This document shows positions 54,416 through 54,634 of a stretch of DNA of 64,000 nucleotides, one piece after another. A model generated the notes under the pieces. The model saw only the letters and a list, made by a program, of their open reading frames with translations. It was not told the origin of the DNA and did not search any database. Position numbers and translations under genes: made by a program. Source of the stretch: Nafulsella turpanensis ZLM-10 (GTDB lineage: Bacteria; Bacteroidota; Bacteroidia; Cytophagales; Cyclobacteriaceae); the NCBI RefSeq assembly GCF_000346615.1, contig NZ_ANNU01000005.1, forward strand, positions 124,001 through 188,000, read 5' to 3'. The stretch's first letter is position 1. Each line of letters opens with the position of its first letter.

Positions 54416-54547
54416 GTAGAGAAATGAAAAGGATGTAGTTTACCCTCTACTGTTTACAGCCAGCCATACGGAACTTCGGCAACGAACGTCCGGATGTGCT
54501 TAGCAGCAACAGCAACAACAGTAGCCGGCCATTGATGGAACCGCTAC
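54416..54547 (-). promoter_or_regulatory. Hairpins around the poly-Cys run (candidate attenuator elements)
   Basis: Reading the minus strand: hairpin A (54521-54547), GTAGCGG...CCGGCTAC with inner CCAT/ATGG, sits directly before the six Cys codons. Hairpin B (54465-54496) is an imperfect stem starting just past the leader stop. Hairpin C (54416-54450), GTAGAG/CTCTAC, is followed by CAGTTTTT. In addition AGCCCCGGCCATT (54589-54601) can pair with AATGGCCGGCT (54523-54533), which competes with hairpin A. Mutually exclusive structures are expected for attenuation; stem strengths are modest and untested. Confidence 0.5.
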
Positions 54548-54634
54548 AGTGGCTAAAAAAGGAATAGTAAGAGAATCGCCTGGCTGTGAATGGCCGGGGC
54601 TGGGTACTTCCTGAAAGTTGATGTGGCTTTTCAT
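54500..54634 (-). CDS. Poly-cysteine leader peptide (44 aa) of the met operon
   Basis: Small ORF of 44 codons plus TAA. It starts MKSHINFQEVPSPG and ends Ala-Gly-Tyr followed by six consecutive Cys codons (TGT TGT TGC TGT TGC TGC) and the stop. It begins 11 nt after the SAM-I aptamer and ends 173 nt before metY. A terminal run of one amino acid tied to the pathway is the classic design of a ribosome-stalling leader: low charged tRNA-Cys should pause the ribosome on the run and change downstream RNA folding. Poly-Cys leaders acting as cysteine sensors are known in mycobacteria; I know of no description in this phylum. The peptide itself probably has no function. Confidence 0.75.
   Translation of the reverse strand: MKSHINFQEVPSPGHSQPGDSLTIPFLATVAVPSMAGYCCCCCC

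Follow-up and report, generated by a model that had tools for sequence, protein, structure and literature searches.

What is a short open reading frame whose last six sense codons all specify cysteine doing ahead of a methionine operon in Nafulsella turpanensis ZLM-10? The frame lies in the 64,000-nucleotide stretch of contig NZ_ANNU01000005.1 analyzed here (positions 124,001 to 188,000 of the forward strand; hereafter the window), and an earlier note, made from the letters alone, had taken it for a cysteine-sensing attenuator. We consider it fairly probable that the frame supplies one of two inputs arranged in series in the mRNA leader, in which a SAM-I riboswitch gates a Cys-sensing leader ORF of a sulfur operon.

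Aptamer, leader and operon in the window

Read from the sequence, the leader ORF occupies 54634..54500 on the minus strand, and its 44 sense codons (ATG plus 43) translate as MKSHINFQEVPSPGHSQPGDSLTIPFLATVAVPSMAGYCCCCCC, followed by TAA. The run of six Cys codons, TGT TGT TGC TGT TGC TGC (54520..54503, minus strand), adjoins the stop, and the leader thus carries what characterizes amino-acid leader-peptide attenuators, a run of a pathway-related residue near the end of a short ORF. Between the leader stop and metY lies a spacer of 173 nt, weakly structured in the window (54327..54499, minus strand); this distance refers to a metY start at 54326, chosen by fit to homologues, where the mechanical ORF list has 54392. 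The three genes that follow, all on the minus strand, encode O-acetylhomoserine sulfhydrylase (metY, 52986..54326; NCBIfam TIGR01326, 680 bits), homoserine O-acetyltransferase (metX, 51871..52923; NF001209, 336.5 bits, above cut-off) and homoserine dehydrogenase (hom, 50873..51865; NF004976, 314.7 bits, above cut-off). The sequence agrees with the earlier description of the frame, its terminal cysteines and its distance from metY, and the NCBIfam models agree with the identity given to the operon.

Immediately upstream, on the same strand, is a full-length SAM-I (S-box) riboswitch aptamer of 115 nt (54644..54758, minus strand; Rfam RF00162, 73.9 bits against a gathering threshold of 44.4, model positions 1-108), which was recovered in the genome-wide search too. 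Further 5', in the same orientation, 55015-55629 (minus strand) encodes a sigma-factor-like protein, of ECF/SigZ type as judged by eye. The leader ATG lies 9 nt past the last aptamer base (offset +9), so that the 3' strand of stem P1, UAUAAAUU (54644..54651, minus strand), corresponds to positions -17..-10 of the leader ATG and takes in the adenines at -14..-11. In the predicted aptamer fold this strand pairs with GAUUUAUA at 54758..54751.

The placement bears directly on initiation. Bacteroidota are described as using no Shine-Dalgarno pairing, and in F. johnsoniae initiation is reported to be promoted by adenines at -14..-11, -6 and -3 together with little structure (PMC6847099). The start context of the leaders matches this A-rich element. 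Among 46 leaders that had not been selected by pattern (45 from the set of relatives described below, plus L162), adenine occurs at -14 and -13 in 72% each, at -12 in 67%, at -6 in 50% and at -3 in 52%, with a Shine-Dalgarno-like motif in only one; the ATG falls at +6..+10 in 37 of the 46, which puts -14..-11 within the last eight aptamer bases, that is, in the P1 3' strand. The tally was repeated on all 77 leaders, 31 of which had been selected for TATAAATT. Because SAM binding stabilizes P1, the SAM-bound aptamer should hide the -14..-11 element of the leader. SAM-I riboswitches with a ribosome-binding site inside the 3' side of P1 are on record (PMC2258182); as described there, they likewise have an initiation element built into P1, but at the present loci the A-rich Bacteroidota element takes that part and a leader is the ORF under control. 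At other loci main genes begin at the leader's position, including metX in L157 (+11) and metY in L346 (+10), both NCBIfam-confirmed, and in L398 a frame of at least 197 codons (+9); these provide independent support for control of starts by P1 at this spot. Judged by position, the leader is in the place of a riboswitch-controlled start codon, where the SAM-I expression platform is expected.

The same genome holds five SAM-I aptamers, four of which have a Cys-tailed leader; the fifth, before a metH-like gene, has none. These four leaders start at +5 to +11, comprise 31-44 codons and end in CCCCCCN, CCCCCC, CCCCCCC and CCCC, and the genes behind them encode an NhaC-like transporter, MetY, a RimK-like ATP-grasp protein, and a ferredoxin with a Cys/Met PLP enzyme behind it. 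A RimK-like ATP-grasp protein behind a SAM aptamer and Cys leader was seen in two genomes (L003, L235), and is perhaps a sulfur-linked ligase.

Conservation of the pair and of the Cys tail

The comparison set comprised 59 genomes, the window's own and 58 relatives, with 120 aptamers in 52 of the genomes, all 120 of which were inspected; a leader was called Cys-tailed if it had at least three Cys among its last 10 residues. Such leaders follow 45 of the 120 aptamers, and are distributed over 33 of the 52 aptamer-bearing genomes and eight of 15 families. By their P1 3' strand the aptamers are of two types, 76 with UAUAAAUU, UAUGAA or GAUAAA and 44 with GAUAAG-like strands; Cys-tailed leaders accompany 45 of the 76 in the UAUAAAUU-like type and none of the 44 in the other, a split that was defined post hoc, after inspection of the data (under an earlier rule, the first type had 44 of 65 ORFs with a tail, and the second a single one, L149). 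Elsewhere within the loci examined there are 2193 other ORFs of 15-90 aa with an ATG start; 21 of them, about 1%, have such a tail, and at least four of these 21 resemble real leaders (L107, L108, L150 and the second ORF of L109). On these counts the Cys run is kept in relatives, the check that had been set beforehand, and the architecture of aptamer plus leader is well supported at the level of sequence. The tail is missing from 31 of the 76 aptamers of the leader-bearing type; of the 36 aptamer-bearing genomes in the window's own family, 11 lack a Cys-tailed leader, and in a species of the same genus (G001) the tail before metY is only a weak one, CSAFMAGCGC (L096). Aptamers of the GAUAAG type (L004, L015), often found before metH-like genes, are without a leader, and in some of them the GATAAG strand seems to recur close to where the gene begins.

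Within the leaders, it is the tail that is distinctive. Each of the last seven positions holds a cysteine in 22-37 of the 65 ORFs, compared with a cysteine content of 1.6% in the N-terminal part. Methionine is enriched as well: in the 46 unselected leaders, the final 12 positions contain 33 Met among 552 residues, and the remainder of the peptide 14 among 1207 (62 of 924 and 19 of 1929, respectively, when the 31 pattern-selected named leaders are included), and mixed tails include CICMCCCCC in Mucilaginibacter and MCMCMQ in L338. Across 18 hand-chosen pairs, whose leaders were pre-selected for Cys in a way that favors tail identity, identity amounts to 129 of 177 positions in the tails and 219 of 474 in the remainder of the peptide; in the same pairs, the two Cys codons differ in 32 of 102 aligned columns. 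The ratio of TGT to TGC is 156:88 in the tails of the 46 leaders and 274:161 in all 77, and is reversed, at 71:118, in the downstream genes. No NCBIfam model matched any of the six leaders checked. A tail that is kept while the rest diverges, with synonymous changes among its Cys codons, fits selection on the decoding of those codons. The earlier reading of the leader as cysteine-sensing is upheld as far as the conserved run goes, but it is incomplete: it overlooked the SAM-I riboswitch directly upstream, and the tails are enriched in methionine too.

A more skeptical reading, that a TG-rich low-complexity repeat merely looks like codons, draws on the behavior of the bare motifs. Four Cys codons followed by a stop-like codon match the genome nine times, and not once when read backwards; three matches belong to SAM-linked leaders (the fourth leader, with its terminal Asn, is not caught by the motif), and the other six, which are not leaders, lie in frames lacking an ATG start, two of them continuing into Trp. 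In relatives, likewise, many bare-motif matches fall in other frames of long genes. A five-Cys motif gave 35 matches in the 59 genomes, against one for its backward control, and among 30 of these loci inspected, nine carry a short ORF that begins with ATG and is clear of long frames, eight of them with a SAM core upstream. The ninth (L293) has no SAM-I aptamer by Rfam and precedes a TonB-linked-receptor-like protein, as judged by eye; L299, a poly-Cys frame without ATG, also lacks SAM-I by Rfam. The excess of tails at aptamers over the background, their in-frame starts and stops and their synonymous variation already contradict an artefact, to which we assign a negligible probability.

A scan of named genomes with a combined pattern returned at least 118 stretches, 80 of them listed by name. 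Among these 80, 31 are leaders (27 by expression filter, four by eye); Rfam finds SAM-I in 30 of the 31, and the remaining stretch, L209, is truncated close to its start. Carriers among the matches listed include Fulvivirga, Pontibacter, Rufibacter, Sabulibacter, Cesiribacter, Botryobacter, Thermoflexibacter, Mucilaginibacter, Pararcticibacter and one entry labelled just 'bacterium', as well as metagenome-assembled genomes labelled Cyclobacteriaceae, Cytophagaceae, Flammeovirgaceae, Microscillaceae, Flavobacteriia, Psychroflexus and Crocinitomicaceae. The 38 further stretches of the scan include 19 that are leader-like, 16 of these with a SAM core by expression. In a sample of the phylum, with 85 loci inspected, a leader was found at none of the 30 best loci, one of 15 class loci (L162) and one of another 40 (L397). 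The family of G137 was sampled as a second one: among 30 loci inspected there, 14 aptamers are of the leader-bearing type, and seven of these have a Cys tail. In the samples examined, then, the device appears common among the window's relatives, recurrent in the G137 family and rare elsewhere. The leader of L358, from a genome that shares its genus with G030 and belongs to the window's family, is identical to that of Cesiribacter andamanensis (L205) over the 30 residues compared; on this basis the window probably comes from a Cytophagales relative of Cesiribacter.

By sequence motif, with examples verified using NCBIfam and Pfam, the gene behind the 77 leaders is metY in 39 cases, a ferredoxin gene comes first in 10, and the gene is OsmC-like in seven, sulfite-reductase-like in five, a TonB receptor in five, NhaC-like in three, a Cys/Met PLP enzyme in two, metX in one and another gene in four; in one case none was found. 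The OsmC-like genes, which have redox roles, and the unusual nature of Cys runs might speak for a nascent peptide that senses metal or redox state through its cysteines, as proposed for a copper-linked uORF (PMC9426467). We hold this to be very improbable: the tail goes together with SAM riboswitches and sulfur genes, and methionine is enriched along with cysteine. Moreover, the tail sits at the extreme C-terminus of peptides with a median of 37 residues, and the C-terminal tail of such short peptides should still be inside the ribosome exit tunnel at termination.

The spacer and candidate readouts

Whether the leader does more than pass ribosomes on to the operon can be judged in part from where it ends. 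If the riboswitch acted through a plain translational relay, with the leader only carrying ribosomes or shielding the RNA from Rho, the Cys run would be no sensor. ORFs at the leader position that lack the tail would suit such a relay, as their median gap to the gene is 23 nt and three overlap it (n=16), which recalls M. tuberculosis ppe2, where a B12 riboswitch acts through a uORF whose stop is reported to overlap the gene start (PMC11260477). Cys-tailed leaders, in contrast, end far from the gene, at a median of 135 nt and a minimum of 59 (n=36; p 2.9e-6 against the tail-less ORFs), and the difference persists without nine distances above 400 nt, mostly past a ferredoxin gene (median 119 nt, n=27, p 3.8e-5). 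An overlap of uORF stop and gene start, as reinitiation would have it, is confined to three of the 16 tail-less loci, and in the window 173 nt intervene. Nor does a relay account for a Cys/Met tail that is retained while other residues diverge, and we therefore regard it as unlikely for the Cys-tailed leaders. The ppe2 case remains instructive as a riboswitch that governs translation of a uORF and is relayed to the gene, as is predicted here, where the aptamer covers the uORF initiation region by position and the occlusion itself is a prediction; it differs in that its uORF, as described in that source, has no amino-acid run, and in that the present ORF has Cys codons and a stop far upstream of the gene. 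In L097, L105 and L110, the stop of a tail-less ORF and the start of the Cys/Met PLP enzyme gene behind it overlap by 11 nt, which suggests control by SAM through translational coupling.

The spacers that separate Cys-tailed leaders from their genes are more structured than shuffled sequences (mean z -1.34, n=71), and the leader ORF itself is not (-0.03). Compared with 68 other intergenic stretches, which are somewhat structured themselves, they score -1.45 against -0.70 (p 0.001). The leader region of the window taken as a whole is unremarkable by itself, having a z of -1.42, with six of 100 shuffles equally stable. Structured spacers would be in keeping with classical transcription attenuation, in which stalling at Cys codons favors an antiterminator over an intrinsic terminator, and two loci, L099 and L109, do have strong hairpins with T runs just before sulfite-reductase-like genes. 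These are, however, the only two of 77 loci in which a scan for hairpin plus T-tract detects a strong intrinsic terminator; some others, such as L025, L140 and L149, have weaker candidates, and in the window the scan of the spacer returned no terminator-like site, its hairpins before T-rich stretches being weak, at about -3 kcal/mol. Intrinsic termination was accordingly dropped as a common readout. Of the earlier claim of a cysteine-sensing attenuator, conservation gives strong support to the part that places a leader with Cys codons ahead of a sulfur operon, but in most loci, the window included, classical attenuation by an intrinsic terminator is not seen. As a general explanation such attenuation seems distinctly improbable; it is better seen as a variant of readout within serial control by riboswitch and leader, and may apply to a subset of loci.

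Several loci show further short Cys-rich frames. L099 and L109 have two in tandem behind a single SAM-I aptamer, followed by the terminator and then the gene. In L186 (Rufibacter) and L241 (Sabulibacter), a second frame ending in RMCCC and a stop lies about 205-225 nt past the first leader stop, before a TonB-receptor-like gene, and similar short Cys ends were seen in L190 and L245.

Other candidate readouts were considered. The C>G bias that might point to Rho is present in leader plus spacer, but equally in the region behind leader-free aptamers, and does not discriminate. Pairing between the Cys run and the spacer gave a mean z of -0.63 against shuffles in 45 loci, but the effect was weak in a swap control covering 77 loci (rank test p 0.06; centered test p 0.003, driven by few loci), and such pairing was dropped as a general feature. 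RNAalifold yielded no common spacer fold in the three groups to which it was applied. Hairpins are visible by eye in the spacers of the Mucilaginibacter group. In mycobacterial leaderless poly-Cys sORFs, the Cys tract reportedly pairs with the downstream initiation region and hides it. Here gene starts, with a z of +0.35, show no unusual degree of structure, and for the modelled ribosome positions in the window the predicted access to the metY start hardly changes (0.60-0.69), with no clear switch.

Proposed serial control and its relation to known systems

Serial control by riboswitch and leader would proceed as follows. With SAM bound, P1 would lock the A-rich -14..-11 element and block translation of the leader; at low SAM, ribosomes would translate it and, where charged Cys-tRNA is scarce, would stall on the terminal Cys codons (Cys and Met codons in many relatives). 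A ribosome stalled just before the stop would alter the fold of the spacer and raise expression of the sulfur operon, here metY-metX-hom, which should peak when SAM and Cys-tRNA are both low. In the last step, the altered fold may act on termination, whether intrinsic or Rho-dependent, or on translation. Translation of the leader, stalling, the sign of the response and the final readout are what we infer, and that low cysteine should turn the operon on follows from the pathway and from the Cys leaders of mycobacteria.

Each half of this arrangement has precedents. Poly-Cys leaders are on record in Actinobacteria (PMC1262725), and those of mycobacteria are reported to respond to cysteine, the M. 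smegmatis ones being leaderless (Canestrari 2020, as cited in PMC13236596 and PMC9031893). The present leaders resemble these in being short ORFs with a run of Cys codons near the stop, ahead of sulfur genes; they differ in that a SAM-I aptamer abuts the ORF, tails mix Cys and Met, and the host is of the Bacteroidota. The window leader is thus predicted not to be leaderless, as the 115-nt aptamer lies directly 5' of it in the same orientation. A second, tRNA-related input into a methionine operon is also known from Xanthomonas, where the SAM-I riboswitch is reported to bind uncharged initiator tRNA as well (PMC7270179); there the tRNA binds the RNA directly, whereas here a translating ribosome would read the second input. 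The uORFC-8-2 motif in the cysS leader of Rhodobacterales places Cys codons in a leader ORF (PMC8632094), but with two tandem Cys codons, an intrinsic terminator and no riboswitch, in alpha-proteobacteria. A flavobacterial transcriptome study mentions clues to leader-peptide attenuation before amino-acid operons, in the text available without details (PMC9723704). Searches of open-licence PMC papers turned up no description of a SAM-I riboswitch coupled to a Cys leader, nor of a poly-Cys leader in Bacteroidota. Going by the sequences, the serial combination of these two known kinds of control, riboswitch and Cys leader, appears new.

We also lean, somewhat more cautiously, towards a broader proposition, that a widespread logic of Bacteroidota is at work, in which the riboswitch hides a non-Shine-Dalgarno, A-rich element and so gates a leader that senses sulfur aminoacyl-tRNAs (Cys, and in some clades Cys and Met), and which would have evolved by placing a tRNA-sensing ORF at a riboswitch-controlled gene start. 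If serial control is borne out, Cys-leader control reaches another large bacterial group, two classical principles of RNA control, the riboswitch and the leader peptide, are joined in series, and these loci offer a natural model of how a riboswitch controls translation without Shine-Dalgarno pairing. The leaders also point to many unannotated regulatory small ORFs, and outline a candidate sulfur regulon of metY, metX, sulfite-reductase-like, OsmC-like, NhaC-like and TonB-receptor genes, which is open to testing in genera that can be cultured, among them Pontibacter, Mucilaginibacter and Fulvivirga.
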